In this document: in pieces, positions 3,760 through 51,490 of the stretch
How positions within the stretch are numbered: position 1 is the stretch's first letter
Layout of the letters: every line of letters begins with the position of its first letter
NCBI RefSeq assembly: GCF_035046485.1
Contig: NW_026917520.1
Coordinates: forward strand, 1-64,000
Source: Aedes albopictus
Lineage: Eukaryota; Arthropoda; Insecta; Diptera; Culicidae
DNA length: 64,000 nt
Direction: 5' to 3'
The notes under the pieces: model-generated
Databases searched by the model: none
The model's input: the letters and a program-made list of their open reading frames with translations, nothing else
Told to the model about the DNA's origin: nothing
Translations under genes and position numbers: made by a program

Positions 3760-3767
3760 GAATCGAC

Positions 3768-4200: not shown

Positions 4201-4208
4201 GAATCGAC

Positions 4209-16129: not shown

Positions 16130-16130
16130 A

Positions 16131-16149
16131 TTGGCGACGAGGATGGGAT
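16131..16149 (+). promoter_or_regulatory. primer-binding site, tRNA-Ser(GCT)-like
   Basis: TGGCGACGAGGATGGGAT starts at 16132, two bases after the LTR. It is the reverse complement of the conserved metazoan tRNA-Ser(GCT) 3' end (...ATCCCATCCTCGTCG plus CCA). Priming by tRNA-Ser is known in Mag-group Ty3/gypsy elements. Confidence 0.75.
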
Positions 16150-20346: not shown

Positions 20347-21545
20347 CAGGGTGTTTGTTTCCGGACTTTAAATAATTTGAGGGCAGATAGGTCTTAATGA
20401 GATATGAAAAAGTGCCCAAGGAACATGGGGTCGCAAATCACTGCTAAGTGAGTTATTCAAAATTCTATGATTTTTAAAATGCAAAACTTTAAAAAATTGT
20501 ATCTCAGCTATCTTTGATCAAAATCTCAATCTTTTTGCATGAATTGAAAGCCTGAACCATTGTGCTGTTATGCTTCTTGGACAAAAACTCGATCTAAAGT
20601 AATTAACATACTTAAATTTTGGAAAGTTTGCGGCAAAAGCCGAAAAAAATGCTCTTTTTTTTAGGTATTTTTGTTGTTATTTAATGAAAACACGTAGTAA
20701 AGTAGAAAAGTGATATTCTACAAAAGATTGTTTATGTTGTTTTCTACCAAACTCTCTTTGGGACTAACATTGAATTTTTTGTAGTTTGGCCACAATAATT
20801 AATTCAAAGTTAGGTAAGAAACTCATCGAATCGCGAAAAACATCGCCCCGATTTCATTGAACCGTGCTTTGGCAGCACTTCCCGTTCGTGTGCTTGCTGT
20901 TTACTCTCCCAACAGCAGGCAAGAGAAACTATTGCAACGCACATGAGTAGCCAAACATTGCCACACAACCAACCAACTGGTCCTGATTGGTGATATGTTT
21001 GGTTGTGCATAACAAACATTGCACCAATCTGGGCGAGTTGGTCGTTCGGGTGGAGAGTTTGTAGCCATGACTATGCCTCTGTTATTGTTGATGTGGGGAA
21101 TGCGCACAGTTTAAAGCAGCGCATCGAATTTCCGCTGTGGCGGAAAGCAATGCGGAGGTTGCGTGCGAGAGGACGCGCGCAAGATTTTTAAAACATTGAT
21201 ATGCTAGTAGCGATACTAATGTTGGTCGCCGAGAGCAAGACGAGCTGCGTGGTGTTTAAATTCCTTTGCCGAGTTGGGTTTCCTTGCACTCGCAGTCAAA
21301 CTGCGGTGCTATTCAGATGGGGTGGGGTTATGCTGACGAAGTCAGATATTATTTTATTGATTTTAAATAAGTAATTTAATGAATAATTCCATAATTAATG
21401 TGTGTTAATTTATTAGTGTTGTATAATTACAGCTAATTTGCTAAATAAGCTGTGATTATTCTTTTTTCTGGCATTACATACCATCGGGTACACAGTCTGT
21501 TCTGTACTATTTAAGGTATGAATGGGAGATATTAAGGTGGATTAT
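20347..21545 (+). repeat. left 1,199-bp terminal inverted repeat
   Basis: Starts CAGGGTGTTTGTTTCCGG. An AT-rich outer half (to about 20815) is followed by a more GC-rich middle (20820-21340) and an AT-rich inner end that leads into the satellite. The mirror position of base x is 71835 minus x. Few differences from the right copy are visible (for example near 20540-20556). Small open frames of 60-70 codons exist in both copies but resemble nothing I know. The GC-rich middle could be captured host sequence. Confidence 0.92.
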
Positions 21546-24469
21546 TGAGGGAAGTCGGTTCCTCCCAATAAGTGTTCGGTAATTTTAGGTGATATTAGGG
21601 GGCATTCTGAGGAAAGTCGATGCCTCCCAATAAGTGTTCGGTAATTTTAGGTGATAATGGGAGGCATTCTTAGGGAAGTTGGTTCCTCCCAAAAAGTGTT
21701 CGGTAATTTTAGGTGATATTAGGGGGCATTCTGAGGGAAGTTGGTTCCTCCCAATAAGTGTTCGGTAATTTTAGGTGATATTAGGGGGCATTCTGAGGGA
21801 AGTCGGTTCCTCCCAATAAGTGTTCGGTAATTTTAGGTGATAATGGGAGGCATTCTTAGGGAAGTTGGTTCCTCCCAATAAGTGTTCGCTAATTTTAGGT
21901 GATATTAGGGGGCATTCTGGGGGAAGTCGGTTCCTCCCAATAAGTGTTCGGTAATTTTAGGTGATATTAGGGGGCATTCTGAGGGAAGTTGGTTCCTCCC
22001 AATAAGTGTTCGGTAATTTTAGGTGATATTAGGGGGCATTCTGGGGGAAGTCGGTTCGTCCCAATAAGTGTTCGGTAATTTTAGGTGATATTAGGGGGCA
22101 TTCTGAGGGAAGTCGGTTCCTCCCAATAAGTGTTCGGTAATTTTAGGTGATATTAGGGGGCATTCTGATGAAAGTCGGTTCCTCCCAATAAGTGTTCGGT
22201 AATTTTAGGTGATAGTGGGAGGCATTCTTAGGGAAGTTGGTTCCTCCCAATAAGTGTTCGGTAATTTTAGGTGATATTAGGGGGCATTCTGAGGGAAGTC
22301 GGTTCCTCCCAATAAGTGTTCGGTAATTTTAGGTGATATTAGGGGGCATTCTGATGAAAGTCGGTTCCTCCCAATAAGTGTTCGGTAATTTTAGGTGATA
22401 GTGGGAGGCATTCTTAGGGAAGTTGGTTCCTCCCAATAAGTGTTCGGTAATTTTAGGTGATATTAGGGGGCATTCTGAGGGAAGTCGGTTCCTCCCAATA
22501 AGTGTTCGGTAATTTTAGGTGATATTAGGGGGCATTCTGAGGGATGTCGGTTCCTCCCAATAAGTGTTCGGTAATTTTAGGTGATATTAGGGGGCATTCT
22601 GAGGGAAGTCGATGCCTCCCAATAAGTGTTCGGTAATTTTAGGTGATATTAGGGGGCATTCTGAGGAAAGTCGATGCCTCCCAATAAGTGTTCGGTAATT
22701 TTAGGTGATATTAGGGGGCATTCTGAGGGAAGTCGGTTCCTCCCAATAAGTGTTCGGTAATTTTAGGTGATATTAGGGGGGCATTCTGAGGGAAGTCGAT
22801 GCCTCCCAATAAGTGTTCGGTAATTTTAGGTGATATTGGGGAGCATTCTGAGGGAAGTTGGTTCCTCCCAATTAGTGTTCGGTAATTTTAGGTGATAGTG
22901 GGAGGCATTCTTAGGGAAGTCGGTTCTTCCCAATTAGTGTTCGGTAATTTTAGGTGATATTAGGGGGCATTCTGAGGGAAGTCGGTTCCTCCCAATTAGT
23001 GTTCGGTAATTTTAGGTGATATTAGGGGGCATTCTGAGGGAAGTCGATGCCTCCCAATAAGTGTTCGGTAATTTTAGGTGATATTAGGGGGCATTCTGAG
23101 GGAAGTCGATGCCTCCCAATAAGTGTTCGGTAATTTTAGGTGATATTAGGGGGCATTCTGAGGGAAGTCGGTTCCTCCCAATAAGTGTTCGGTAATTTTA
23201 GGTGATATTAGGGGGCATTCTGAGGGAAGTCGATGCCTCCCAATAAGTGTTCGGTAATTTTAGGTGATATTAGGGGGCATTCTGAGGGAAGTCGGTTCCT
23301 CCCAATAAGTGTTCGGTAATTTTAGGTGATATTAGGGGGCATTCTGAGGGAAGTCGATGCCTCCCAATAAGTGTTCGGTAATTTTAGGTGATATTAGGGG
23401 GCATTCTGAGGGAAGTTGGTTCCTCCCAATAAGTGTTCGGTAATTTTAGGTGATATTAGGGGGCATTCTGAGGGAAGTCGATGCCTCCCAATAAGTGTTC
23501 GGTAATTTTAGGTGATATTAGGGGGCATTCTGAGGGAAGTAGGTTCCTCCCAATAAGTGTTCGGTAATTTTAGGTGATATTAGGGGGCATTCTGAGGGAA
23601 GTCGGTTCCTCCCAATAAGTGTTCGGTAATTTAAGGTGATATTAGGGGGCATTCTGAGGGAAGTCGATGCCTCCCAATAAGTGTTCGGTAATTTTAGGTG
23701 ATATTAGGGGGCATTCTGAGGGAAGTCGGTTCCTCCCAATAAGTGTTCGGTAATTTTAGGTGATATTAGGGGGCATTCTGAGGGAAGTCGGTTCCTCCCA
23801 ATAAGTATTCGGTAATTTTAGGTGATATTAAGGGACATTCTGAGGGAAGTCGATGCCTCCCAATAAGTGTTCGGTAATTTTAGGTGATATTAGGGGGCAT
23901 TCTGAGGGAAGTTGGTTCCTCCCAATAAGTGTTCGGTAATTTTAGGTGATATTAGGGGGCATTCTGAGGGAAGTCGGTTCCTCCCAATAGGTGTTCGGTA
24001 ATTTTAGGTGATATTAGGGGGCATTCTGAGGGAAGTCGATGCCTCCCAATAAGTGTTCGGTAATTTTAGGTGATATTAGTTGACATTCTGAGGGAAGTTG
24101 GTTCCTCCCAATAAGTGTTCGGTAATTTTAGGTGATATTAGGGGGCATTCTGAGGGAAGTCGGTTCCTCCCAATAAGTGTTCGGTAATTTTAGGTGATAT
24201 TAGGGGGCATTCTGAGGGAAGTTGGTTCCTCCCAATAAGTGTTCGGTAATTTTAGGTGATATTAGGGGGCATTCTGAGGGAAGCCGGTTCCTCCCAATAA
24301 GTGTTCGGTAATTTTAGGTGATAATGGGAGGCATTCTTAGGGAAGTTGGTTCCTCCCAATAAGTGTTCGGTAATTTTAGGTGATATTAGGGGGCATTCTG
24401 AGGGAAGTCGATGCCTCCCAATAAGTGTTCGGTAATTTTAGGTGATATTAGGGGGCATTCTGAGGGAAG

Positions 24470-27400
24470 TCGGTTCCTCCCAATAAGTGTTCGGTAATTT
24501 TAGGTGATAATGGGAGGCATTCTTAGGGAAGTTGGTTCTTCCCAATAAGTGTTCGGTAATTTTAGGTGATATTAGGGGGCATTCTGAGGGAAGTCGGTTC
24601 CTCCCAATAAGTGTTCGGTAATTTTAGGTGATATTAGGGGGCATTCTGAGGGATGTCGGTTCCTCCCAATAAGTGTTCGGTAATTTTAGGTGATATTAGG
24701 GGGCATTCTGAGGGAAGTCGGTTCCTCCCAATTAGTGTTCGGCATTCTGAGGGAAGTCGGTTCCTCTCAATAAGTGTTCGGTAATTTTAGGTGATATTCG
24801 GAAGCATTGTTAAGACAGTTGGGTCCTCTCAATAAGTGTTCGGTAAATTTAGGTGATATTCGGGGTCATTGTTAAGACAGTTGGGTCCTCCCAATAAGTG
24901 TTCGGTAATTTTAGGTGATACTGGAGGGCATTCTGAGGGAAGTCGATTCCTCCCAATAAGTGTTCGGTAATTTCAGGTGATATTGGGAGGCATTCTGAGG
25001 GAAGTCGGTTCCTCTCAATAAGTGTTCGGTAATTTTAGGTGATATTCGGGGGCATTGTTAAGACAGTTGGGTCCTCCCAATAAGTGTTCGGTAATTTTAG
25101 GTGATACTGGAGGGCATTCTGAGGGAAGTCGGTTCCTCCCAATAAGTGTTCGGTAATTTTAAGTGATATTGGGAGACATTCTTAGGGAAGTTGGGTCCTC
25201 CCAATAAGTGTTCGGTAATTTTAAGTGACAATGGGGGGACATTCTGAGGGAAGTCGGTTCCTCCCAATAAATGTTCGGTAATTTTAGGTGATACTGGAGG
25301 GCATTCTGAGGGAAGTTGATTCCTCCCAATAAGTGTTCGGTAATTTCAGGTGATATTGGGAGGCATTCTGAGGGAAGTCGGTTCCTCCCAATAAGTGTTC
25401 GGTAATTTTAGGTGATATTGGGGAGCATTCTGAGGGAAGTCGGTTCCTCCCAATAAGTGTTCGGTAATTTTAGGTGATATTGGGAGGCATTCTGAGGGAA
25501 GTCGGTTCCTCCCAATAAGTGTTCGGTAATTTCAGGTGATATTGGGAGGCATTCTGAGGGAAATCGGTTCCTCCCAATAAGTGTTCGGTAATTTTAGGTG
25601 ATATTGGTAGGCATTCTGAGGGAAGTAGGTTCCTCCCAATAAGTGTTCGGTAATTTTAGGTGATATTGGGGGGCATTCTGAGGGAAGTCGGTTCCTCCCA
25701 ATAAGTGTTCAGTAATTTTAGGTGATATTGGGGGGCATTCTGAGGGAAGTCGGTTCCTCCCAATAAGTGTTCGGTAATTTTAGGTTATATTCGGAAGCAT
25801 TGTTAAGACAGTTGGGTCCTCCCAATAAGTGTTCGGTAATTTTAGGTGATACTGGAGGGCATTCTGAGGGAAGTCGGTTCCTCCCAATAAGTGTTCGGTA
25901 ATTTCAGGTGATATTGGGAGGCATTCTGAGGGAAGTCGGTTCCTCTCAATAAGTGTTCGGTAATTTTAGGTGATATTCGGAAGCATTGTTAAGACAGTTG
26001 GGTCCTCCCAATAAGTGTTCGGTAATTTTAGGTGATACTGGAGGCATTCTGAGGGAAGTCGGTTCCTCCCAATAAGTGTTCGGTAATTTTAGGTGATATT
26101 GGGGAGCATTCTGAGGGAAGTCGGTTCCTCCCAATAAGTGTTCGGTAATTTTAGGTGATATTGGGGAGCATTCTGAGGGAAGTCGGTTCCTCCCAATAAG
26201 TGTTCGGCAATTTTAAGTGATATTGGGAGACATTCTTAGGGAAGTTGGGTCCTCCCAATAAGTGTTCGGTAATTTTAGGTGATATTGGGAGACATTCTAA
26301 GGGAAGTCGGTTCCTCCCAATAGGTGTTCGGTAATTTTAGGTGATATTGGAAGGCATTCTGAGGGAAGTCGGTTCCTCCCTATAAGTGTTCGGTAATTTT
26401 AGGTGATATTGGGGAGCATTCTGAGGGAAGTCCGTTCATCCCAATAAGTGTTCGGTTATTTTAGGTGATATTGGGGAGCATTCTGAGGGAAGTCGGTTCC
26501 TCCCAATAAGTGTTCGGTAATTTTAGGTGATATTGGGGAGCATTCTGAGGGAAGTCGGTTCCTCCCAATAAGTGTTCGGCAATTTTAAGTGATATTGGGA
26601 GGCATTCTGAGGGAAGTCGGTTCCTCCCAATAAGTGTTCGGTAATTTTAGGTGATATTGGGGAGCATTCTGAGGGAAGTCGGTTCCTCCCAATAAGTGTT
26701 CGGTAATTCTAGGTGATATTGGGGAGCATTCTGAGGGAAGTCGGTTCCTCCCAATAAGTGTTCGGCAATTTTAAGTGATATTGGGAGACATTCTTAGGGA
26801 AGTTGGGTCCTCCCAATAAGTGTTCGGTAATTTTAGGTGATATTGGGAGACATTCTAAGGGAAGTCGGTTCCTCCCAATAGGTGTTCGGTAATTTTAGGT
26901 GATATTGGGAGGCATTCTGAGGGAAGTCGGTTCCTCCCAATAAGTGTTCGGTAATTTTAGGTGATATTGGGGAGCATTCTGAGGGAAGTCCGTTCCTCCC
27001 AATAAGTGTTCGGTTATTTTAGGTGATATTGGGGAGCATTCTGAGGGAAGTCGGTTCCTCCCAATAAGTGTTCGGTAATTTTAGGTGATATTGGGGAGCA
27101 TTCTGAGGGAAGTCGGTTCCTCCCAATAAGTGTTCGGCAATTTTAAGTGATATTGGGAGGCATTCTGAGGGAAGTCGGTTCCTCCCAATAAGTGTTCGGT
27201 AATTTTAGGTGATATTGGGGAGCATTCTGAGGGAAGTCGGTTCCTCCCAATAAGTGTTCGGTAATTCTAGGTGATATTGGGGAGCATTCTGAGGGAAGTC
27301 GGTTCCTCCCAATAAGTGTTCGGCAATTTTAAGTGATATTGGGAGACATTCTTAGGAAAGTTGGGTCCTCCCAATAGGTGTTCGGTAATTTTAGGTGATA

Positions 27401-30400
27401 TTGGGAGGCATTCTGAGGGAAGTCGGTTCCTCCCAATAAGTGTTCGGTAATTTTAGGTGATATTGGGGAGCATTCTGAGGGAAGTCCGTTCCTCCCAATA
27501 AGTGTTCGGTTATTTTAGGTGATATTGGGGAGCATTCTGAGGGAAGTCGGTTCCTCCCAATAAGTGTTCGGTAATTTTAGGTGATATTGGGGATATTCTG
27601 GGGGAAGTCGGTTCCTCCCAATAAGTGTTCGGTAATTTTAGGGGATATTGGGAGACATTCTAAGGGACGCTGGGTCCTCCCAATAAGTGTTCGGTAAGTT
27701 TAGGTGATATTAGGGGGCATTCTTAAGACAGTTGGGTCCTCCCAATAAGTGTTTGGTAATTTTAGGTGATATTGCGGGACATTCTTGAGGAAGCTGGGTC
27801 CTCCCAATAAGTGTTCGGTAATTTAAGGTGATATTGGAGACATTTCAAGGGAAGCTGGGTCCTCCCAATAAGTGTTCGGTAATTTCAGGTGATATTAGGG
27901 GGCATTCTTAAGACAGTTGGGTCCTCCCAATAAGTGTTTGGTATTTTTAGGTGATATTGGGGGGCATTCTGAGGGAAGTTGGTTCCTCCCAATAAGTGTT
28001 CGGTAATTTTAAGTGACAATGGGGGGACATTCTGAGGGAAGTCGGTTCCTCCCAATAAATGTTCGGTAATTTTAGGTGATACTGGAGGGCATTCTGAGGG
28101 AAGTCGATTCCTCCCAATAAGTGTTCGGTAATTTCAGGTGATATTGGGAGGCATTCTGAGGGAAGTCGGTTTCTCCCAATAAGTGTTCGGTAATTTAAGG
28201 TGATATTGGGGAGCATTCTGAGGGAAGTCGGTTCCTCCCAATAAGTGTTCGGTAATTTTAGGTGATATTGGGAGGCATTCTGAGGGAAGTCGGTTCCTCC
28301 CAATAAGTGTTCGGTAATTTCAGGTGATATTGGGAGGCATTCTGAGGGAAGTCGGTTCCTCCCAATAAGTGTTCGGTAATTTTAGGTGATATTGGTAGGC
28401 ATTCTGAGGGAAGTAGGTTCCTCCCAATAAGTGTTCGGTAATTTTAGGTGATATTGGGGGGCATTCTGAGGGAAGTCGGTTCCTCCCAATAAGTGTTCAG
28501 TAATTTTAGGTGATATTGGGGGGCATTCTGAGGGAAGTCGGTTCCTCCCAATAAGTGTTCGGTAATTTTAGGTTATATTCGGAAGCATTGTTAAGACAGT
28601 TGGGTCCTCCCAATAAGTGTTCGGTAATTTTAGGTGATACTGGAGGGCATTCTGAGGGAAGTCGGTTCCTCCCAATAAGTGTTCGGTAATTTCAGGTGAT
28701 ATTGGGAGGCATTCTGAGGGAAGTCGGTTCCTCTCAATAAGTGTTCGGTAATTTTAGGTGATATTCGGAAGCATTGTTAAGACAGTTGGGTCCTCCCAAT
28801 AAGTGTTCGGTAATTTTAGGTGATACTGGAGGGCATTCTGAGGGAAGTCGGTTCCTCCCAATAAGTGTTCGGTAATTTTAGGTGATATTGGGGAGCATTC
28901 TGAGGGAAGTCGGTTCCTCCCAATAAGTGTTCGGTAATTTTAGGTGATATTGGGGAGCATTCTGAGGGAAGTCGGTTCCTCCCAATAAGTGTTCGGCAAT
29001 TTTAAGTGATATAGGGAGACATTCTTAGGGAAGTTGGGTCCTCCCAATAAGTGTTCGGTAATTTTAGGTGATATTGGGAGACATTCTAAGGGAAGTCGGT
29101 TCCTCCCAATAGGTGTTCGGTAATTTTAGGTGATTTTGGGAGGCATTCTGAGGGAAGTCGGTTCCTCCCAATAAGTGTTCGGTAATTTTAGGTGATATTG
29201 GGGAGCATTCTGAGGGAAGTCGGTTCCTCCCAATAAGTGTTCGGTAATTCTAGGTGATATTGGGGAGCATTCTGAGGGAAGTCGGTTCCTCCCAATAAGT
29301 GTTCGGCAATTTTAAGTGATATTGGGAGACATTCTTAGGGAAGTTGGGTCCTCCCAATAAGTGTTCGGTAATTTTAGGTGATATTGGGAGACATTCTAAG
29401 GGAAGTCGGTTCCTCCCAATAGGTGTTCGGTAATTTTAGGTGGTATTGGGAGGCATTCTGAGGGAAGTCGGTTCCTCCCAATAAGTGTTCGGTAATTTTA
29501 GGTGATATTGGGGAGCATTCTGAGGGAAGTCCGTTCCTCCCAATAAGTGTTCGGTTATTTTAGGTGATATTGGGGAGCATTCTGAGGGAAGTCGGTTCCT
29601 CCCAATAAGTGTTCGGTAATTTTAGGTGATATTGGGGAGCATTCTGAGGGAAGTCGGTTCCTCCCAATAAGTGTTCGGTAATTTTAGGTGATAATGGGAG
29701 GCATTCTTAGGGAAGTTGGTTCTTCCCAATAAGTGTTCGGTAATTTTAGGTGATATTAGGGGGCATTCTGAGGGAAGTCGGTTCCTCCCAATAAGTGTTC
29801 GGTAATTTTAGGTGATATTAGGGGGCATTCTGAGGGATGTCGGTTCCTCCCAATAAGTGTTCGGTAATTTTAGGTGATATTAGGGGGCATTCTGAGGGAA
29901 GTCGGTTCCTCCCAATTAGTGTTCGGCATTCTGAGGGAAGTCGGTTCCTCTCAATAAGTGTTCGGTAATTTTAGGTGATATTCGGAAGCATTGTTAAGAC
30001 AGTTGGGTCCTCTCAATAAGTGTTCGGTAAATTTAGGTGATATTCGGGGTCATTGTTAAGACAGTTGGGTCCTCTCAATAAGTGTTCGGTAATTTTAGGT
30101 GATACTGGAGGGCATTCTGAGGGAAGTCGATTCCTCCCAATAAGTGTTCGGTAATTTCAGGTGATATTGGGAGGCATTCTGAGGGAAGTCGGTTCCTCTC
30201 AATAAGTGTTCGGTAATTTTAGGTGATATTCGGGGGCATTGTTAAGACAGTTGGGTCCTCCCAATAAGTGTTCGGTAATTTTAGGTGATACTGGAGGGCA
30301 TTCTGAGGGAAGTCGGTTCCTCCCAATAAGTGTTCGGTAATTTTAAGTGATATTGGGAGACATTCTTAGGGAAGTTGGGTCCTCCCAATAAGTGTTCGGT

Positions 30401-33400
30401 AATTTTAAGTGACAATGGGGGGACATTCTGAGGGAAGTCGGTTCCTCCCAATAAATGTTCGGTAATTTTAGGTGATACTGGAGGGCATTCTGAGGGAAGT
30501 CGATTCCTCCCAATAAGTGTTCGGTAATTTCAGGTGATATTGGGAGGCATTCTGAGGGAAGTCGGTTCCTCCCAATAAGTGTTCGGTAATTTTAGGTGAT
30601 ATTGGGGAGCATTCTGAGGGAAGTCGGTTCCTCCCAATAAGTGTTCGGTAATTTTAGGTGATATTGGGAGGCATTCTGAGGGAAGTCGGTTCCTCCCAAT
30701 AAGTGTTCGGTAATTTCAGGTGATATTGGGAGGCATTCTGAGGGAAATCGGTTCCTCCCAATAAGTGTTCGGTAATTTTAGGTGATATTGGTAGGCATTC
30801 TGAGGGAAGTAGGTTCCTCCCAATAAGTGTTCGGTAATTTTAGGTGATATTGGGGGGCATTCTGAGGGAAGTCGGTTCCTCCCAATAAGTGTTCAGTAAT
30901 TTTAGGTGATATTGGGGGGCATTCTGAGGGAAGTCGGTTCCTCCCAATAAGTGTTAGGTAATTTTAGGTTATATTCGGAAGCATTGTTAAGACAGTTGGG
31001 TCCTCCCAATAAGTGTTCGGTAATTTTAGGTGATACTGGAGGGCATTCTGAGGGAAGTCGGTTCCTCCCAATAAGTGTTCGGTAATTTCAGGTGATATTG
31101 GGAGGCATTCTGAGGGAAGTCGGTTCCTCTCAATAAGTGTTCGGTAATTTTAGGTGATATTCGGAAGCATTGTTAAGACAGTTGGGTCCTCCCAATAAGT
31201 GTTCGGTAATTTTAGGTGATACTGGAGGCATTCTGAGGGAAGTCGGTTCCTCCCAATAAGTGTTCGGTAATTTTAGGTGATATTGGGGAGCATTCTGAGG
31301 GAAGTCGGTTCCTCCCAATAAGTGTTCGGTAATTTTAGGTGATATTGGGGAGCATTCTGAGGGAAGTCGGTTCCTCCCAATAAGTGTTCGGCAATTTTAA
31401 GTGATATTGGGAGACATTCTTAGGGAAGTTGGGTCCTCCCAATAAGTGTTCGGTAATTTTAGGTGATATTGGGAGACATTCTAAGGGAAGTCGGTTCCTC
31501 CCAATAGGTGTTCGGTAATTTTAGGTGATATTGGAAGGCATTCTGAGGGAAGTCGGTTCCTCCCTATAAGTGTTCGGTAATTTTAGGTGATATTGGGGAG
31601 CATTCTGAGGGAAGTCCGTTCATCCCAATAAGTGTTCGGTTATTTTAGGTGATATTGGGGAGCATTCTGAGGGAAGTCGGTTCCTCCCAATAAGTGTTCG
31701 GTAATTTTAGGTGATATTGGGGAGCATTCTGAGGGAAGTCGGTTCCTCCCAATAAGTGTTCGGCAATTTTAAGTGATATTGGGAGGCATTCTGAGGGAAG
31801 TCGGTTCCTCCCAATAAGTGTTCGGTAATTTTAGGTGATATTGGGGAGCATTCTGAGGGAAGTCGGTTCCTCCCAATAAGTGTTCGGTAATTCTAGGTGA
31901 TATTGGGGAGCATTCTGAGGGAAGTATTGGGAGACATTCTTAGGGAAGTTGGGTCCTCCCAATAAGTGTTCGGTAATTTTAGGTGATATTGGGAGACATT
32001 CTAAGGGAAGTCGGTTCCTCCCAATAGGTGTTCGGTAATTTTAGGTGATATTGGGAGGCATTCTGAGGGAAGTCGGTTCCTCCCAATAAGTGTTCGGTAA
32101 TTTTAGGTGATATTGGGGAGCATTCTGAGGGAAGTCCGTTCCTCCCAATAAGTGTTCGGTTATTTTAGGTGATATTGGGGAGCATTCTGAGGGAAGTCGG
32201 TTCCTCCCAATAAGTGTTCGGTAATTTTAGGTGATATTGGGGAGCATTCTGAGGGAAGTCGGTTCCTCCCAATAAGTGTTCGGCAATTTTAAGTGATATT
32301 GGGAGGCATTCTGAGGGAAGTCGGTTCCTCCCAATAAGTGTTCGGTAATTTTAGGTGATATTGGGGAGCATTCTGAGGGAAGTCGGTTCCTCCCAATAAG
32401 TGTTCGGTAATTCTAGGTGATATTGGGGAGCATTCTGAGGGAAGTCGGTTCCTCCCAATAAGTGTTCGGCAATTTTAAGTGATATTGGGAGACATTCTTA
32501 GGAAAGTTGGGTCCTCCCAATAGGTGTTCGGTAATTTTAGGTGATATTGGGAGGCATTCTGAGGGAAGTCGGTTCCTCCCAATAAGTGTTCGGTAATTTT
32601 AGGTGATATTGGGGAGCATTCTGAGGGAAGTCCGTTCCTCCCAATAAGTGTTCGGTTATTTTAGGTGATATTGGGGAGCATTCTGAGGGAAGTCGGTTCC
32701 TCCCAATAAGTGTTCGGTAATTTTAGGTGATATTGGGGATATTCTGGGGGAAGTCGGTTCCTCCCAATAAGTGTTCGGTAATTTTAGGGGATATTGGGAG
32801 ACATTCTAAGGGACGCTGGGTCCTCCCAATAAGTGTTCGGTAAGTTTAGGTGATATTAGGGGGCATTCTTAAAACAGTTGGGTCCTCCCAATAAGTGTTT
32901 GGTAATTTTAGGTGATATTGCGGGACATTCTTGAGGAAGCTGGGTCCTCCCAATAAGTGTTCGGTAATTTAAGGTGATATTGGAGACATTTCAAGGGAAG
33001 CTGGGTCCTCCCAATAAGTGTTCGGTAATTTCAGGTGATATTAGGGGGCATTCTTAAGACAGTTGGGTCCTCCCAATAAGTGTTTGGTATTTTTAGGTGA
33101 TATTGGGGGGCATTCTGAGGGAAGTTGGTTCCTCCCAATAAGTGTTCGGTAATTTTAAGTGACAATGGGGGGACATTCTGAGGGAAGTCGGTTCCTCCCA
33201 ATAAATGTTCGGTAATTTTAGGTGATACTGGAGGGCATTCTGAGGGAAGTCGATTCCTCCCAATAAGTGTTCGGTAATTTCAGGTGATATTGGGAGGCAT
33301 TCTGAGGGAAGTCGGTTTCTCCCAATAAGTGTTCGGTAATTTAAGGTGATATTGGGGAGCATTCTGAGGGAAGTCGGTTCCTCCCAATAAGTGTTCGGTA

Positions 33401-37800: not shown

Positions 37801-40800
37801 TAATTTAAGGTGATATTGGAGACATTTCAAGGGAAGCTGGGTCCTCCCAATAAGTGTTCGGTAATTTTAGGTGATATTAGGGGGCATTCTTAAGACAGTT
37901 GGGTCCTCCCAATAAGTGTTTGGTATTTTTAGGTGATATTGGGGGGCATTCTGAGGGAAGTTGGTTCCTCCCAATAAGTGTTCGGTAATTTTAAGTGACA
38001 ATGGGGGGACATTCTGAGGGAAGTCGGTTCCTCCCAATAAATGTTCGGTAATTTTAGGTGATACTGGAGGGCATTCTGAGGGAAGTCGATTCCTCCCAAT
38101 AAGTGTTCGGTAATTTCAGGTGATATTGGGAGGCATTCTGAGGGAAGTCGGTTTCTCCCAATAAGTGTTCGGTAATTTAAGGTGATATTGGGGAGCATTC
38201 TGAGGGAAGTCGGTTCCTCCCAATAAGTGTTCGGTAATTTTAGGTGATATTGGGAGGCATTCTGAGGGAAGTCGGTTCCTCCCAATAAGTGTTCGGTAAT
38301 TTCAGGTGATATTGGGAGGCATTCTGAGGGAAGTCGGTTCCTCCCAATAAGTGTTCGGTAATTTTAGGTGATATTGGTAGGCATTCTGAGGGAAGTAGGT
38401 TCCTCCCAATAAGTGTTCGGTAATTTTAGGTGATATTGGGGGGCATTCTGAGGGAAGTCGGTTCCTCCCAATAAGTGTTCAGTAATTTTAGGTGATATTG
38501 GGGGGCATTCTGAGGGAAGTCGGTTCCTCCCAATAAGTGTTCGGTAATTTTAGGTTATATTCGGAAGCATTGTTAAGACAGTTGGGTCCTCCCAATAAGT
38601 GTTCGGTAATTTTAGGTGATACTGGAGGGCATTCTGAGGGAAGTCGGTTCCTCCCAATAAGTGTTCGGTAATTTCAGGTGATATTGGGAGGCATTCTGAG
38701 GGAAGTCGGTTCCTCTCAATAAGTGTTCGGTAATTTTAGGTGATATTCGGAAGCATTGTTAAGACAGTTGGGTCCTCCCAATAAGTGTTCGGTAATTTTA
38801 GGTGATACTGGAGGGCATTCTGAGGGAAGTCGGTTCCTCCCAATAAGTGTTCGGTAATTTTAGGTGATATTGGGGAGCATTCTGAGGGAAGTCGGTTCCT
38901 CCCAATAAGTGTTCGGTAATTTTAGGTGATATTGGGGAGCATTCTGAGGGAAGTCGGTTCCTCCCAATAAGTGTTCGGCAATTTTAAGTGATATAGGGAG
39001 ACATTCTTAGGGAAGTTGGGTCCTCCCAATAAGTGTTCGGTAATTTTAGGTGATATTGGGAGACATTCTAAGGGAAGTCGGTTCCTCCCAATAGGTGTTC
39101 GGTAATTTTAGGTGATTTTGGGAGGCATTCTGAGGGAAGTCGGTTCCTCCCAATAAGTGTTCGGTAATTTTAGGTGATATTGGGGAGCATTCTGAGGGAA
39201 GTCGGTTCCTCCCAATAAGTGTTCGGTAATTCTAGGTGATATTGGGGAGCATTCTGAGGGAAGTCGGTTCCTCCCAATAAGTGTTCGGCAATTTTAAGTG
39301 ATATTGGGAGACATTCTTAGGGAAGTTGGGTCCTCCCAATAAGTGTTCGGTAATTTTAGGTGATATTGGGAGACATTCTAAGGGAAGTCGGTTCCTCCCA
39401 ATAGGTGTTCGGTAATTTTAGGTGATATTGGGAGGCATTCTGAGGGAAGTCGGTTCCTCCCAATAAGTGTTCGGTAATTTTAGGTGATATTGGGGAGCAT
39501 TCTGAGGGAAGTCCGTTCCTCCCAATAAGTGTTCGGTTATTTTAGGTGATATTGGGGAGCATTCTGAGGGAAGTCGGTTCCTCCGAATAAGTGTTCGGTA
39601 ATTTTAGGTGATATTGGGGAGCATTCTGAGGGAAGTCGGTTCCTCCCAATAAGTGTTCGGCAATTTTAAGTGATATTGGGAGGCATTCTGAGGGAAGTCG
39701 GTTCCTCCCAATAAGTGTTCGGTAATTTTAGGTGATATTGGGAGACATTCTAAGGGAAGTCGGTTCCTCCCAATAGGTGTTCGGTAATTTTAGGTGATAT
39801 TGGGGAGCATTCTGAGGGAAGTCGGTTCCTCCCAATAAGTGTTCGGTAATTCTAGGTGATATTGGGGAGCATTCTGAGGGAAGTCGGTTCCTCCCAATAA
39901 GTGTTTGGCAATTTTAAGTGATATTGGGAGACATTCTTAGGGAAGTTGGGTCCTCCCAATAGGTGTTCGGTAATTTTAGGTGATATTGGGAGGCATTCTG
40001 AGGGAAGTCGGTTCCTCCCAATAAGTGTTCGGTAATTTTAGGTGATATTGGGGAGCATTCTGAGGGAAGTCCGTTCCTCCCAATAAGTGTTCGGTTATTT
40101 TAGGTGATATTGGGGAGCATTCTGAGGGAAGTCGGTTCCTCACAATAAGTGTTCGGTAATTTTAGGTGATATTAGGGATATTCTGGGGGAAGTCGGTTCC
40201 TCCCAATAAGTGTTCGGTAATTTTAGGGGATATTGGGAGACATTCTAAGGGAAGCTGGGTCCTCCCAATAAGTGTTCGGTAAGTTTAGGTGATATTAGGG
40301 GGCATTCTTAAGACAGTTGGGTCCTCCCAATAAGTGTTTGGTAATTTTAGGTGATATTGCGGGACATTCTTGAGGAAGCTGGGTCCTCCCAATAAGTGTT
40401 CGGTAATTTAAGGTGATATTGGAGACATTTCAAGGGAAGCTGGGTCCTCCCAATAAGTGTTCGGTAATTTTAGGTGATATTAGGGGGCATTCTGAGGGAA
40501 GTTGGTTCCTCCCAATAAGTGTTCGGTAATTTTAGGTGTTATTGGGGAGCATTCTGAGGGAAATCGGTTCCTCCCAATAAGTGTTCGGTAATTTTAGGTG
40601 GTGATATTGGGGGACATTCTTAGGGAAACTGGGTCCTCCCAGTAAGTGGTCGGTTATTTTAGGTAGGTGATATAAAAGAGCATCCTGAGGGAAGTCATTT
40701 CCTCCCGATAAGTGTTCGGTAATTTTAGGCGATATTTAGGTTATTCTGAGGGAAGTCGATTCCTCCCAATAAGTGTTCGGTAATTTTAGGGGATATTGGG

Positions 40801-41400
40801 AGACATTCTAAGGGAAGCTGGGTCCTCCCAATAAGTGTTCGGTAAGTTTAGGTGATATTAGGGGGCATTCTTAAGACAGTTGGGTCCTCCCAATAAGTGT
40901 TTGGTAATTTTAGGTGATATTGCGGGACATTCTTGAGGAAGCTGGGTCCTCCCAATAAGTGTTCGGTAATTTAAGGTGATATTGGAGACATTTCAAGGGA
41001 AGCTGGGTCCTCCCAATAAGTGTTCGGTAATTTTAGGTGATATTAGGGGGCATTCTGAGGGAAGTTGGTTCCTCCCAATAAGTGTTCGGTAATTTCAGGT
41101 GATATTGGGGAGCAGTCTGAGGGATGTCGGTTCCTCCCAATAAGTGTTCGGTAATTTAGGTGATTTTGGGGGGCATTCTTAAGAAAGTTGGGTCCTCCCA
41201 ATAAGTGTTCGGTAATTTTAGGTGATATTGGGGGGCATTCTGAGGGAAGTCGGTTCCTCCCAATAAGTGTTCGGTAATTTCAGGTGATATTGGGGAGCAG
41301 TCTGAGGGAAGTCGGTTCCTCCCAATAAGTGTTTGTAATTTTAGGTGATATTGGGGGGCATTCTGAGGAAAGTCGGTTCCTCCCAATAAGTGTTCGGTAA
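31740..41400 (+). repeat. higher-order tandem duplication of 4,836 bp (78 units)
   Basis: 31740-36540 is repeated as about 36570-41400 with offset 4,836, which is exactly 78 x 62. Examples are 33093/37929 and 36320/41156. It includes the odd units at 35760-35900 and 40600-40740 (GGTGGTGATATTGGGGGAC and GTCATTTCCTCCCGATAAG). Confidence 0.85.
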
Positions 41401-44400
41401 TATAGGTGATATTAGGGGGCATTCTAAGGGAAGTCGGTTCCTCCCAATAAGTGTTCAGTTATTTTAGGTGATAGTGGGAGGCATTCTTAGGGAAGTTAGG
41501 TCCTCCCAATAAGTGTTCGGCAATTTTAGGTGATATTGGGGGACATTCTGAGGGAAGTTGGGTCCTCTTAATGAGCGTTCTATAATTTTAGGTGATATTG
41601 AAGAGCATTCTGAGGGAAGTTGGGTCCTCCCAATAATTGTTCGGTAATTTTAGGTTATATTAGGGGGCATTCTGAGGAAAGTCGGTTCCTCCCAATAAGT
41701 GTTCGGTAATTTTAGGTGATATTAGGGGGCATTCTGAGGGAAGTCGATGCCTCTAAATAAGTGTTCGGTAATTTTAGGTGATATTAGAGGGCATTCTGAG
41801 GGAAGTCGGTTCCTCCCAATAAGTGTTCAGTTATTTTAGGTGATAGTGGGAGGCATTCTTAGGGAAGTTGGTTCCTCCCAATAAGTGTTCGGTAATTTTA
41901 GGTGATATTAGGGGGCATTCTGAGGGAAGTTGGTTCCTCCCAATAAGTGTTCGGTAATTTTAGGTGATATTAGGGGGCATTCTGAGGGAAGTTGGTTCCT
42001 CCCAATAAGTGTTCGGTAATTTTAGGTGATATTACGGGGCATTCTGAGGGAAGTCGATGCCTCCCAATAAGTGTTCGGTAATTTTAGGTTATATTAGGGG
42101 GCATTCTGAGGGAAGTCGATGCCTCCCAATAAGTGTTCGGTAATTTTAGGTGATATTAGGGGGCATTCTGAGGGAAGTCGGTTCCTCCCAATAAGTGTTC
42201 GGTAATTTAAGGTGATATTGGGGAGCATTCTGAGGGAAGTTAGTTCCTCCCAATTAGTGTTCGGTAATTTTAGGTGATAGTGGGAGGCATTCTTAGGGAA
42301 GTCGGTTCTTCCCAATTGGTGTTCGGTAATTTAGGTGATATTAGGGGGGCATTCTGAGGGAAGTCGATGCCTCCCAATAAGTGTTCGGTAATTTAAGGTG
42401 ATATTGGGGAGCATTCTGAGGGAAGTTGGTTCCTCCCAATTAGTGTTCGGTAATTTTAGGTGATAGTGGGAGGCATTCTTAGGGAAGTCGGTTCTTCCCA
42501 ATTAGTGTTCGGTAATTTTAGGTGATATTAGGGGGCATTCTGAGGGAAGTCGGTTCCTCCCAATTAGTGTTCGGTAATTTTAGGTGGTATTAGAGGGCAT
42601 TCTGAGGGAAGTAGGTTCCTCCCAATAAATGTTCGGTAATTTTAGGTGATATTAGGGGGCATTCTGAGGGAAGTCGATGCCTCCCAATAAGTGTTCGGTA
42701 ATTTTAGGTAATATTGGGGAGCATTCTGAGGGAAGTTGGTTCCTCCCAATAAGTGTTTGGTAATTTTAGGTGATAGTGGGAGACATTCTTAGGTAAGTCG
42801 GTTCCTCCCAATTAGTGTTCGGTATTTTTAGGTGATATTAGGGGGCATTCTGAGGGAAGTCGGTTCCTCCCTATAAGTGTTCGGTAATTTTAGGTGATAT
42901 TAGGGGGCATTCTGAGGGATGTCGGTTCCTCCCAATAAGTGTTCGGTAATTTTAGGTGATATAGGGGGCATTCTGAGGGAAGTCGGTTCCTCCCAATTAG
43001 TGTTCGGTAATTCTAGGTGATATTAGGGGGCATTCTGAGGGAAGTCGATGCCTCCCAATAAGTGTTCGGTAATTTTAGGTGATATTAGGGGGCATTCTGA
43101 GGGAAGTCGGTTCCTCCCAATAAGTGTTCGGTAATTTTAGGTGATATTAGGGGGCATTCTGAGGGAAGTCGGTTCCTCCCAATAAGTGTTCGGTAATTTT
43201 AGGTGATATTAGGGGGCATTCTGAGGGAAGTCGGTTCCTCCCAATAAGTGTTCGGTAATTTTAGGTGATATTAGGGGACATTCTGAGGGAAGTCGATGCC
43301 TCCCAATAAGTGTTCGGTAATTTTAGGTGATATTAGGGGGCATTCTGAGGGAAGTCGGTTCCTCCCAATAAGTGTTCGGTAATTTTAGGTGATATTAGGG
43401 GGCATTCTGAGGGATGTCGGTTCCTCCCAATAAGTGTTCGGTAATTTTAGGTGATATTAGGGGGCATTCTGAGGGAAGTCGATGCCTCCCAATAAGTGTT
43501 CGGTAATTTTAGGTGATATTAGGGGGCATTCTGAGGGAAGTCGGTTCCTCCCAATTAGTGTTCGGTAATTTTAGGTGATATTAGAGGGCATTCTGAGGGA
43601 AGTAGGTTCCTCCCAATAAGTGTTCGGTAATTTTAGGTGATAGTGGGAGACATAGCTAGGGAAGTTGGGTCCTCCCAATAAGTGTTCGGTAATTTTAGGT
43701 GATATTAGGGGGCATTCTGAGGGAAGTCGGTTCCTCCCAATAAGTGTTCGGTAATTTTAGGTGATATTAGGGGGCATTCTGAGGGATGTCGGTTCCTCCC
43801 AATAAGTGTTCAGTAATTTTAGGTGATATTAGGGGGCATTCTGAGGGAAGTCGATGCCTCCCAATAAGTGTTCGGTAATTTTAGGTGATATTAGGGGGCA
43901 TTCTGAGGGATGTCGGTTCCTCCCAATAAGTGTTCGGTAATTTTAGGTGATATAAGGGGGCATTCTGAGGGAAGTCGATGCCTCCCAATAAGTGTTCGGT
44001 AATTTTAGGTGATATTAGAGGGCATTCTGAGGGAAGTCGATGCCTCCCAATAAGTGTTCGGTAATTTTAGGTGATATTGGGGAGCATTCTGAGGGAAGTT
44101 GGGTGCTCCCAATGAGTGTTCGGTAATTTTAGGTGATAGTGGGAGACATAGCTAGGGAAGTTGGGTCCTCCCAATAAGTGTTCGGTAATTTTAGGTGATA
44201 TTGGGTCCTCCCAATGAGTGTTTGAAAATTTTAGGTGATATTGGAGGGCATTCTAAGGAAAGTTGGGTCCTCCCAATGAGTTTTTGGTAATTTGAGGTGA
44301 TATTAAGGGTCACCCTGAGGGAAGTTGGCTCTTCCCAATGAGTGTTTGGAAATTTTATGTGATACTGGAGGGCATCCTGAGTGAAGTTGGGTCCTCCCAA

Positions 44401-44868
44401 TAAGTGTTCTGTAATTTAAGGTGATATTGGGGAGCATCCTGGAGGAAGTTGGGTCCTCCCAATAAGTGTTCGGGTTTTTAGGTGATATTGGGAGGCATTC
44501 TGAGGAAGTTGGTTTCAATTTGACGATATGCGTATATTTTACATGCGCCTAAATGGAGGCATGCACGCATATGGCCTCAACTTTATCATCTTTTGCAACA
44601 TCTTATACGATTACTGGTTGTCTGGGAAGTGGTTGGTAATTTTTGGTGATATTGGGAGCATCCTGAGGGAAGTTAGGTCCTCCCAATGGGTGTTTGAAAA
44701 TTTTAGGCGATATTGAAGGACACGCTGAGGGAAGTTGAGTCCTCCCAATGGGTGTTTGAAAATTTTAAGTGTTATTGAGAGGCATTCTGGGGGAAGTTGG
44801 GTCCTCCCAATGAGTGTTTGAACATTTTAGGTAACATTGAGGGGCATTCTGAGGGAAGTTGAATCGAC

Positions 44869-45301: not shown

Positions 45302-45309
45302 GAATCGAC

Positions 45310-48300
45310 CCAACATTTATTGGGAGGAACCGACTTCCCTCAGAGAACCTCCCACTATCACCTAAAATTACCGAACACTTATTGGGAGAAACCGACTTCC
45401 CTCAGAATGCCTCCCAATATCACCTAAAATTACCGAACACTTAGTGGGAGGAACCGACTTCCCTCAGAATGCCCCCTAATATCTTCTAAAATTACCGAAC
45501 ACTTATTGGGAGGCATCGACTTCCCTCAGAATGCCCCCTAATATCACCTAAAATTACCGAACACTTATTGGGAGAAACCGACTTTCCTCAGAATGCCCCC
45601 TAATATCATCTAAAATTACCAAACACTTATTGGGAGGAACCGACTTCCCTTAGAATGCCCCCTAATATCACCTAAAATTACCGAACACTTATTGGGAGGA
45701 ACCGACATCCCTCAGAATGCCCCCTAATATCACCTAAAATTACCGAACACTTATTGGGAGGAACCGATTTTCCTCAGAATGCCCCCTAATATCACCTAAA
45801 ATTACCGAACACTTATTGGGAGGCATCGACTTCCCTCAGAATGCCCCCTAATATCACCTAAAATTACCGAACACTTATTGAGAGGAACCAACTTCCCTAA
45901 GAATGCCTCCCATTATCACCTAAAATTACCGAACACTTATTGGGAGGAACCGACTTCCCTCAGAATGCCCCCTCATATCACCTAAAATTACCGAACACTT
46001 ATTGGGAGGCATCGACATCCCACATAATGCCCCCTAATATCACCTAAAATTACCGAACACTTATTGGGAGGAACCGACTTCCCTCAGAATGCCCCCTAAC
46101 ATCACCTAAAATTACCGAACACTTATTGGGAGGAACCGACTTTCCTCAGAATGCCCCCTAATATCACCTAAAATTACCGAACACTTATTGGGAGGAACCG
46201 ACTTTCCTCAGAATACCCCCTAATATCACCTAAAATTACCGAACACTTATTGGGAGGCATCGACTTCCCTCAGAATGCCCCCTAATATCACCTAAAATTA
46301 CCGAACACTTATTGGGAGGAACCAACTTCCCTAAGAATGCCTCCCACTATCACCTAAAATTACTGAACACTTATTGGGAGGAACCGACTTCCCTCAGAAT
46401 GCCCCCTAATATCACCTAAATTACCGAACACTTATTGGGAGGAACCAACTTCCCTAAGAATGCCTCCCATTATCACCTAAAATTACCGAACACTTATTGG
46501 GAGGCATCGACATCCCTCAGAATGCCCCCTAATATCACCTAAAATTACCGAACACTTATTGGGAGGCATCGACATCCCTCAGAATGCCCCCTAATATCAT
46601 CTAAAATTACCGAACACTTATTGGGAGGAACCGACTTCCCTCAGAATGCCCCCTAATATCACCTAAAATTACCGAACACTTATTGGGAGGCATAGACATC
46701 CCTCAGAATGCCCCCTAATATCACCTAAAATTACCGAACACTTATTGGGAGGAACCGACTTTCCTCAGAATGCCCCCTAATATCACCTAAAATTACCGAA
46801 CACTTATTGGGAGGAACCGACTTTCCTCAGAATGCCCCCTAATATCACCTAAAATTACCGAACACTTATTGGGAGGAACCGACTTTCCTCAGAATGCCCC
46901 CTAATATCACCTAAAATTACCGAACACTTATTGGGAGGCATCGACTTCCCTCAGAATGCCCCCTAATATCACCTAAAATTACCGAACACTTATTGGGAGG
47001 AACCAACTTCCCTAAGAATGCCTCCCACTATCACCTAAAATTACCGAACACTTATTGGGAGGAACCGACTTTCCTCAGAATGCCCTCTAATATCACCTAA
47101 ATTACCGAACACTTATTGGGAGGAACCAACTTCCCTAAGAATGCCTCCCATTATCACCTAAAATTACCGAACACTTATTGGGAGGAACCAACTTCCCTAA
47201 GAATGCCTCCCATTATCTCCTAAAATTACCGAACACTTATTGGGAGGAACCGACTTCCCTCAGAATGCCCCCTAATATCACCTAAAATTACCGAACACTT
47301 ATTGGGAGGAACCGACTTCCCTCAGAATGCCCCCTAATATCACCTAAAATTACCGAACACTTATTGGGAGGCATCGACATCCCTCAGAATGCCCCCTAAT
47401 ATCACCTAAAATTACCGAACACTTATTGGGAGGCATCGACTTCCCTCAGAATGCCCCCTAATATCACCTAAAATTACCGAACACTTATTGGGAGGAACCG
47501 ACTTCCCTCAGAATGCCCCCTAATATCACCTAAAATTACCGAACACTTATTGGGAGGAACCGACATCCCTCAGAATGCCCCCTAATATCACCTAAAATTA
47601 CCGAACACTTATTGGGAGGAACCGACTTCCCTCAGAATGCCCCCTAATATCACCTAAAAATACCGAACACTAATTGGGAGGAACCGACTTCCCTAAGAAT
47701 GCCTCCCACTATCACCTAAAATTACCGAACACTTATTGGGAGGAACCGACTTCCGTCAGAATGCCCCCTAATATCACCTAAAATTACCGAACACTTATTG
47801 GGAGGAACCGACTTCCCTCAGAATGCCCCCTAATATCACCTTAAATTACCGAACACTTATTGGGAGGAACCGACTTCCCTCAGAATGCCCCCTAATATCA
47901 CCTAAAATTACCGAACACTTATTGGGAGGAACCGACTTCCCTCAGAATGCCCCCTAATATCACCTAAAATTACCGAACACTTATTGGGAGGCATCGACTT
48001 CCCTCAGAATGCCCCCTAATATCACCTAAAATTACCGAACACTTATTGGGAGGAACCGACTTCCCTCAGAATGCCCCCTAATATCACCTAAAATTACCGA
48101 ACACTTATTGGGAGGAACCAACTTCCCTAAGAATGCCTCCCATTATCACCTAAAATTACCGAACACTTATTGGGAGGAACCGACGTCCCTCAGAATGCCC
48201 CCTAATATCACCTAAAATTACCGAACACTTATTGGGAGGAACCAACTTCCCTAAGAATGCCTCCCATTATCACCTAAAATTACCGAACACTTATTGGGAG

Positions 48301-50289
48301 GAACCGACTTCCCTCAGAATGCCCCCTAATATCACCTAAACTTATTGGGAGGAACCAACTTCCCTAAGAATGCTTCCCATTATCACCTAAAATTACCGAA
48401 CACTTATTGGGAGGCATCGACATCCCTCAGAATGCCCCCTAATATCACCTAAAATTACCGAACACTTATTGGGAGGCATCGACATCCCTCAGAATGCCCC
48501 CTAATATCATCTAAAATTACCGAACACTTATTGGGAGGAACCGACTTCCCTCAGAATGCCCCCTAATATCACCTAAAATTACCGAACACTTATTGGGAGG
48601 CATAGACATCCCTCAGAATGCCCCCTAATATCACCTAAAATTACCGAACACTTATTGGGAGGAACCGACTTTCCTCAGAATGCCCCCTAATATCACCTAA
48701 AATTACCGAACACTTATTGGGAGGAACCGACTTTCCTCAGAATGCCCCCTAATATCACCTAAAATTACCGAACACTTATTGGGAGGAACCGACTTCCCTC
48801 AGAATGCCCCCTAATATCACCTAAAATTACCGAACACTTATTGGGAGGAACCAACTTCCCTCAGAATGTCAACTAATATCACCTAAAATTACCGAACACT
48901 TATTGGGAGGCATCGACTTCCCTCAGAATGCCCCCTAATATCACCTAAAATTACCGAACACTTATTGGGAGGCATCGACATCCCTCAGAATGCCCCCTAA
49001 TATCACCTAAAATTACCGAACACTTATTGGGAGGAATCAACTTCCCTAAGAATGCCTCCCACTATCACCTAAAATTACCGAACACTTATTGGGAGGAACC
49101 GACTTTCATCAGAATGCCCCCTAATATCACCTAAAATTACCGAACACTTATTGGGAGGAACCGACTTCCCTCAGAATGCCCCCTAATATCACCTAAAATT
49201 ACCGAACACTTATTGGGAGGAACCGACTTCCCCCAGAATGCCCCCTAATATCACCTAAAATTACCGAACACTTATTGGGAGGAACCAACTTCCCTCAGAA
49301 TGCCCCCTAATATCACCTAAAATTACCGAACACTTATTGGGAGGAACCGACTTCCCCCAGAATGCCCCCTAATATCACCTAAAATTAGCGAACACTTATT
49401 GGGAGGAACCAACTTCCCTAAGAATGCCTCCCATTATCACCTAAAATTACCGAACACTTATTGGGAGGAACCGACTTCCCTCAGAATGCCCCCTAATATC
49501 ACCTAAAATTACCGAACACTTATTGGGAGGAACCGACTTCCCTCAGAATGCCCCCTAATATCACCTAAAATTACCGAACACTTATTGGGAGGAACCAACT
49601 TCCCTAAGAATGCCTCCCACTATCACCTAAAATTACCGAACACTTATTGGGAGGAACCGACTTTCATCAGAATGCCCCCTAATATCACCTAAAATTACCG
49701 AACACTTATTGGGAGGAACCGACTTCCCTCAGAATGCCCCCTAATATCACCTAAAATTACCGAACACTTAATGGGAGGAACCGACTTCTCCCAGAATGCC
49801 CCCTAATATCACCTAAAATTACCGAACACTTATTGGGAGGAACCAACTTCCCTCAGAATGCCCCCTAATATCACCTAAAATTACCGAACACTTATTGGGA
49901 GGAACCGACTTCCCCCAGAATGCCCCCTAATATCACCTAAAATTAGCGAACACTTATTGGGAGGAACCAACTTCCCTAAGAATGCCTCCCATTATCACCT
50001 AAAATTACCGAACACTTATTGGGAGGAACCGACTTTTCTCAGAATGCCCCCTAATATCACCTAAAATTACCGAACACTTATTGGGAGGAACCAACTTCCC
50101 TCAGAATGCCCCCTAATATCACCTAAAATTACCGAACACTTTTTGGGAGGAACCAACTTCCCTAAGAATGCCTCCCATTATCACCTAAAATTACCGAACA
50201 CTTATTAGGAGGCATCGACTTCCCTCAGAATGCCCCCTAATATCACCTAAAATTACCGAACACTTATTGGGAGGAACCGACTTCCCTCA
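45310..50289 (-). repeat. right satellite arm, 62-bp units (about 5.0 kb)
   Basis: About 80 units in reverse orientation, all of the ATATTAGGGGG/ATAATGGGAGG type. Private variants match the left arm in mirrored order: CTTTTTGGGAGG at about 50139 mirrors CCTCCCAAAAAG near 21686, and AAAATTAGCGAACAC mirrors GTTCGCTAATTTT near 21884. The latter unit occurs twice here (49381 and 49939, exactly 558 bp or nine units apart), so this arm has its own nine-unit duplication. Confidence 0.95.
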
Positions 50290-51488
50290 ATAATCCACCT
50301 TAATATCTCCCATTCATACCTTAAATAGTACAGAACAGACTGTGTACCCGATGGTATGTAATGCCAGAAAAAAGAATAATCACAGCTTATTTAGCAAATT
50401 AGCTGTAATTATACAACACTAATAAATTAACACACATTAATTATGGAATTATTCATTAAATTACTTATTTAAAATCAATAAAATAATATCTGACTTCGTC
50501 AGCATAACCCCACCCCATCTGAATAGCACCGCAGTTTGACTGCGAGTGCAAGGAAACCCAACTCGGCAAAGGAATTTAAACACCACGCAGCTCGTCTTGC
50601 TCTCGGCGACCAACATTAGTATCGCTACTAGCATATCAATGTTTTAAAAATCTTGCGCGCGTCCTCTCGCACGCAACCTCCGCATTGCTTTCCGCCACAG
50701 CGGAAATTCGATGCGCTGCTTTAAACTGTGCGCATTCCCCACATCAACAATAACAGAGGCATAGTCATGGCTACAAACTCTCCACCCGAACGACCAACTC
50801 GCCCAGATTGGTGCAATGTTTGTTATGCACAACCAAACATATCACCAATCAGGACCAGTTGGTTGGTTGTGTGGCAATGTTTGGCTACTCATGTGCGTTG
50901 CAATAGTTTCTCTTGCCTGCTGTTGGGAGAGTAAACAGCAAGCACACGAACGGGAAGTGCTGCCCAAGCACGGTTCAATGAAATCGGGGCGATGTTTTTC
51001 GCGATTCGATGAGTTTCTTACCTAACTTTGAATTAATTATTGTGGCCAAACTACAAAAAATTCAATGTTAGTCCCAAAGAGAGTTTGGTAGAAAACAACA
51101 TAAACAATCTTTTGTAGAATATCACTTTTCTACTTTACTACGTGTTTTTATTAAATAACAACAAAAATACCTAAAAAAAAGAGCATTTTTTTCGGCTTTT
51201 GCCGCAAACTTTCCAAAATTTAAGTATGTTAATCACTTTAGATCGAGTTTTTGTCCAAGAAGCATAACAGCACAATGGTTCACGCTTTCAATTTATGCAA
51301 AAAGATTGAGATTTTGATCAAAGATAGCTGAGATACAATTTTTTGAAGTTTTGCATGTTAAAAATCATAGAATTTTGAATAACTCACTTAGCAGTGATTT
51401 GCGACCCCATGTTCCTTGGGCACTTTTTCATGTCTCATTAAGACCTATCTGCCCCCAAATTATTTAAAGTCCGGAAACAAACACCCTG
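50290..51488 (-). repeat. right 1,199-bp terminal inverted repeat
   Basis: Mirror of 20347-21545. It ends ACAAACACCCTG at 51488, followed by the TA duplication. A few substitutions versus the left copy are visible, for example near 51280-51295 and 51340-51360. Confidence 0.92.
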
Positions 51489-51490
51489 TA

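Follow-up and report, generated by a model that had tools for sequence, protein, structure and literature searches.

The first 64,000 nt of contig C1150 of the Aedes albopictus genome (hereafter, the window) contain, at positions 20347-51488, an inverted-repeat element of 31,142 bp that consists almost entirely of satellite DNA. The genome comprises 1.34 Gb in 1,494 contigs, of which C1 (338 Mb), C2 (519 Mb) and C3 (450 Mb) are chromosome-size. Here we argue that this element very probably belongs to a family of related foldback DNA transposons, giant and non-autonomous, which presumably owe their movement to a TA-specific transposase of Tc1/mariner type acting in trans. As read from the genome sequence, the family is marked by dispersed copies with the same ends, TATATA-like targets, opposed satellite arms and, in one case, an empty site.

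The ends of the window's element, CAGGGTGTTTGTTTCCGG, begin at 20347 on the forward and at 51488 on the reverse strand, with TATA on the outer side of both. The initial annotation of this DNA had the 1199-bp end repeats pairing exactly; the register (x with 71835-x) indeed holds without insertions or deletions, whereas the bases differ at 9 positions. The near-identity of the two sides continues past the repeats into the satellite, extending over 2426 bp at 98.7%. BLAST labelling assigns 91% of the element to satellite, 8% to end repeat and 1.4% to the centre, with an unlabelled fraction of 0.00, in keeping with the earlier description of an interior made only of 62-bp satellite in opposed arms and a hairpin. 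The arms are unequal, 23.3 kb of forward and 5.0 kb of reversed satellite lying on either side of a palindrome of about 0.45 kb (DNA fold z = -26.7). The four longest duplications listed within the left arm measure 2.3-4.6 kb and are 99.8-99.97% identical, and three of them are spaced by whole 62-bp monomers.

Both the insertion into a gypsy pol frame and the TA on either side, as first annotated, stand up to scrutiny. The element interrupts a Ty3/gypsy pol at a point flanked by its RNase H domain and its integrase zinc-binding domain, and removal of one TA restores an open frame of 200 codons, so that the duplicated part is TA. The empty site that had been proposed as a check, sought for the window's copy only, exists: once one TA is removed, a gypsy paralogue on C1 that lacks the insertion aligns without gaps over 203 of 203 nt (94%). 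A second empty paralogue, on C2, has a 10-bp gap at the insertion point. Contig C1363 carries the same left junction, with a flank 99% alike over 90 nt beside an end, and the insertion therefore seems to have been assembled twice. Just upstream of the insertion-bearing gypsy copy, an open Ty3/gypsy pol frame of 1131 codons occupies 16128-19523 on the opposite strand.

Elements with the same ends are scattered over the genome. The outer 33 bp have 73 exact matches (35 forward, 38 reverse; none for the reversed pattern that served as control) and 87 matches with up to 3 mismatches. Pairing by position and orientation yields 37 inward-facing pairs, the number used as the element count, which span 8,870-41,306 bp (median 20,827; total 804,654 bp) and are spread over the three chromosome-size contigs and contigs C690, C1150, C235 and C1339. 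A pair 159 kb apart (C2:273411557-273570862) was left out of this count, its 100-bp ends being 32 edits apart and its sample containing no satellite, and was retained in the count of TA flanks. In the latter, TA is found on both sides of all 38 pairs and TATA agrees in 30; by inspection, the other eight deviate from TATA on one side only, as expected if 2 bp are duplicated inside a TATATA-like target. A 4-bp duplication was rejected, since it disagrees with these eight pairs and conflicts with the restored frame and the empty site. Longer duplications are unsupported: 8-bp flanks agree in 4 and 10-bp flanks in 2 of the 38 pairs, and the empty site fits 2 bp. Elements 15, 32 and 35 (L041, L075, L083) lie in a TA run directly next to which a related element ends (CAGGGTGTTAAGTTCCTG, CAGGGTGTTAGGTTCCTGAG and CAGGGTGTTTGGTTCC).

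Nine of the 37 elements (the window's and eight others) were read through, element 9 was covered in part, and each of the remaining 27 is represented by one 300-bp sample. All nine elements seen whole run from one end repeat through satellite and then reversed satellite to the other end repeat, and so have the long inverted arms with internal tandem subrepeats of a foldback element, and the dispersed copies with a target-site duplication (37 pairs, all TA-flanked) are likewise as in foldbacks. The centre is of the window's type in six of the nine; elements 1 and 5 have a different common centre (96% alike), and in element 8 the arms join directly. Satellite was matched by 23 of the 27 samples and at least once in the partial sequence of element 9. 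Three elements carry nested inserts, in which inspection recognised no transposase: that of element 4 has long frames resembling, by eye, a non-LTR (long terminal repeat) retrotransposon, that of element 5 is repetitive and free of long frames, and that of element 1 has no frame of 120 codons. Single ends exist as well; the one at C1:176558618, for instance, comprises about 330 bp of end repeat next to other sequence. At 8.9-41.3 kb, the elements far exceed the hundreds of bp typical of miniature inverted-repeat transposable elements (MITEs). The initial inference of a giant non-autonomous foldback transposon is supported by these 37 TA-flanked pairs and the empty site.

Several observations weigh against the proposal. 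Four of the 27 samples, from elements of 25-32 kb, contain no satellite, nor does that of the 159-kb pair; one of the four is 99% alike to sequence elsewhere on C1. Long shared arrays were seen only between elements 4 and 7, most pairs sharing little beyond the ends. The 2-bp TA duplication is that of Tc1/mariner; the length is not, since autonomous members measure about 1.3-2.4 kb, as stated in PMC6875036. Such size is expected of a non-autonomous derivative, and it therefore counts against a typical member of the superfamily, not against mobilisation by such a transposase. Finally, no transposase was found with these ends: none of 13 DDE_3 loci examined has CAGGGTGTT ends, and no partner appeared among the best 150 of 645 DDE_3 and the best 150 of 276 DDE_1 candidates, which were the ones scored in the profile searches; by eye, none of these listed matches lies inside a paired element. 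The placement in the Tc1/mariner superfamily thus comes from the TA duplication and the target, not from a protein, and should be regarded as provisional.

In a variant of the proposal, the enzyme acting on the same foldbacks would be of pogo type (DDE_1) or some other TA-specific kind, not a DDE_3-type Tc1/mariner transposase. Pogo duplicates TA as well, and this genome is rich in DDE_1 genes, but nothing favours one DDE type, neither having turned up with these ends among the candidates just described; we consider this variant possible, if rather doubtful. Two inverted-repeat pairs with DDE_3 genes were noticed in the same searches, at C1:235506905-235537456 (L125+L118, L126; 30.6 kb apart) and C3:259975177-260000206 (L127+L119, L128; 25.0 kb apart). 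Their ends are TATTGACGG and TTATTGTACG, their repeats are 1.5-1.75 kb long and 99.8-99.9% identical, and in each repeat a DDE_3 (IS630-like) transposase is encoded by an open frame, 363 or 351 codons long; the surroundings of both pairs, when examined, showed no CAGGGTGTT ends. Related open DDE_3 frames of 354-403 codons at L112-L116 and L121-L123 lack convincing short inverted ends over the 1.8 kb examined (Pfam naming covers L116, L118 and L119 only).

Did the elements move as large units, or did they grow where they had landed? The initial annotation had left both options standing, and there is evidence for each. Small MITE-like foldbacks might have inserted and then each grown its satellite in place, the giants being immobile; the arrays differ greatly between most element pairs, the left arm in the window carries recent internal duplications, and small relatives of 0.96-3.6 kb are present. 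Against this stand elements 4 (C1, 30.8 kb including an insert of about 5.9 kb) and 7 (C2, 17.2 kb), on different chromosomes and in opposite orientation, which are colinear: 15,235 of the 17,176 bp of element 7 match in segments at 98.9-99.9%, array and ends included, but the 498-bp flanks of the two show no match, flanks being unrelated among the nine elements compared. Growth in place would require the variants to have arisen in the same order on two occasions, and we regard it as improbable. Between the colinear segments there are ten changes of offset, of which six are exact multiples of 62 (1860, 124, -62, 5642, 186 and -682); the others are 61, 6631 (spanning the insert), -7 and -83, the last two not being monomer multiples. 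As far as the genome sequence can tell, a satellite unit has moved while large, and arrays change in length, largely by whole 62-bp units. The scarcity of exact sequence common to most pairs means that arrays turn over fast or grew apart. These data suggest that long satellite arrays can relocate within a genome as single units.

A segmental duplication or assembly artefact, with arrays caught between chance inverted repeats, is largely refuted and deserves very little credence: tandem arrays are difficult to assemble and the window's contig is unplaced, but 37 pairs on three chromosome-size and four small contigs are all TA-flanked with flanks unrelated among the nine compared, the window's left junction is assembled again on C1363, and an empty site exists.

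The two ends of an element are strikingly alike. In eight elements, left and right ends show 0, 0, 1, 1, 2, 2, 4 and 11 differences per approximately 1330 sites; those of element 1, which are interrupted by large gaps, differ at 5 of 635 comparable sites. Between elements, the median difference is 4.8% (three single ends are among the sequences compared, two of which match over part of the repeat and diverge beyond it). Across 38 pairs, the summed left-right distance of the 100-bp ends is 72 against 128 expected, and none of 10,000 permutations gave so low a value. Since ends are much closer within than between elements, the arms must have been homogenised; as cut-and-paste alone would carry end differences along, conversion or template switching between the arms is the likely cause.

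These features can be combined into the following scenario. The transposase, TA-specific, a member of the Tc1/mariner superfamily and supplied from another locus, would bind the outer ends, then cut and paste the whole palindrome nearly regardless of its length. The tandem core would lengthen or shorten by unequal exchange, slippage or gap repair, and conversion or template switching could rewrite one arm on the model of the other, keeping the ends alike and the palindrome intact. More speculatively, the elements might constitute a self-palindromising class of transposon, in which the gap left at mobilisation or repair is refilled from the opposite arm, so that ends and arms serve as templates for one another, lengthening the satellite in the same step, so that tens of kb of satellite spread as cargo; we offer this only tentatively.

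Two further types of element have related ends. Those of family B, a sister family built on the same plan with a different repeat, are about 85% like the ends of family A, to which the window's element belongs, over the first 131 bp. Family B includes a whole 1.24-kb foldback with 445-bp arms, 100% identical, and no array. Also seen whole were an element of 3.55 kb and a compound locus whose inward ends lie 5.0 and 7.5 kb apart, both with opposed 20-bp/137-bp arrays. The conserved 121-nt end brought up 507 first-look candidates, 40 of them scored; a 20-bp end with up to 2 mismatches has 253 matches on each strand (control, 2 and 0). There are 17 more pairs, 7.6-47 kb apart, whose left ends all match family B and whose right ends are known from the 20-bp match only. 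The 137-bp repeat was matched in 10 of 15 mid-element samples of family B (9 of 12 and 1 of 3). Descent of the 62-bp and the 137-bp repeat from one ancestral sequence was considered and is unsupported, the local score being 30 versus a mean of 25 and a maximum of 46 for shuffled sequences. The third end type (pattern including TA) has 1768 forward and 1789 reverse matches (3,557; control, 0 and 0). The 100 places listed include 19 close inward pairs, of which 16 have a spacing of 962-965 bp and three one of 1.65-1.83 kb; this is an abundant MITE of about 0.96 kb with ends related to those of the giants.

Features of the window's element and of a second copy in the same window
Feature	Position	Strand	Basis
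TA target-site duplication, left copy, within a TATA	20345..20346		frame restored on removing one TA; empty site
Left terminal inverted repeat, 1199 bp	20347..21545	+	in-register pairing with 50290-51488, 9 mismatches
Left arm, 62-bp satellite array with recent internal 2.3-4.6-kb duplications	21546..44862	+	
Central palindrome, 17-bp-type subrepeats in each half	about 44863..45307		fold z -26.7
Right arm, 62-bp satellite array, reversed	45308..50289	-	
Right terminal inverted repeat, 1199 bp	50290..51488	-	
TA target-site duplication, right copy	51489..51490		restored frame; empty site
Second, truncated copy: left-arm satellite, centre and part of right arm; no end repeat on either side	1..6240	+	

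The truncated copy had been overlooked in the initial annotation. Segments of 99.7-99.8% identity matching 41102-47403 of the element cover 98% of it, and it is bounded by the contig start and, near 6240, by other sequence; the adjoining 6241-7100 resembles, by eye, palindromic repeats of MITE type. Around the element, an 87-bp tandem repeat occurs in both orientations (14048-14689, 58108-58356, 59780-60244 and 61743-63831), and a 51-bp tandem array (58657-59552; 17.6 copies, 95%) has long open frames on both strands.

These findings bear on the scattering of satellite arrays along chromosome arms. One view, published for the Tetris element of Drosophila virilis (PMC4079207), is that long arrays disrupt the transposition of the element from which they arose; for Tetris itself, larger arrays are suggested to have possibly done so. 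Here, units of 9-41 kb, with ends and TA on both sides, occupy 37 places, and in one pair of copies an entire array is seen to have travelled. A search of the open-licence full-text literature, with repeat databases outside its scope, yielded no element of such size and make-up; among the matches listed, the letters of CAGGGTGTT occur in papers on other subjects, CAGGG is absent from PMC3212995 and PMC6875036, and the word "satellite" from PMC3259105. What seems new is the size of the units, the preservation of intact ends around such long arrays and the homogenisation within elements. With two ends and two arms per element, homogenisation and array growth become measurable copy by copy, and the length tolerance of a TA-specific transposase becomes testable.

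Among known systems, FB of Drosophila has a target duplication longer than TA. FB and similar elements of other organisms share with the present family long inverted arms, terminal blocks of subrepeats and a mostly non-coding nature; unlike theirs, the arms of the window's element measure 5 to 24 kb each, satellite included, and foldback inverted repeats were given in 2007 as at most 1-2 kb (PMC1952172). Among published foldbacks whose repeats form satellites, Tetris comes closest; its account (PMC4079207) likewise describes a non-autonomous element with long inverted ends (up to 1,735 bp), internal tandem repeats of changing copy number that also occur as satellite arrays, and a smaller MITE relative; it reports no transposase, as here. 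Tetris differs in its 8-10-bp target duplications, with a suggested Mutator affinity, and its three complete copies, as against the TA duplication and 37 complete-looking copies of 9-41 kb found here. Another close system is miDNA4 of Xenopus tropicalis, a non-autonomous Tc1/mariner MITE that contains a satellite of variable copy number and whose long arrays, according to the relevant parts of two reviews (PMC12628747, PMC9659126), turn into ordinary satellite once the ends decay; the opposed palindromic arms that characterise the present elements go unmentioned for miDNA4 in those descriptions.

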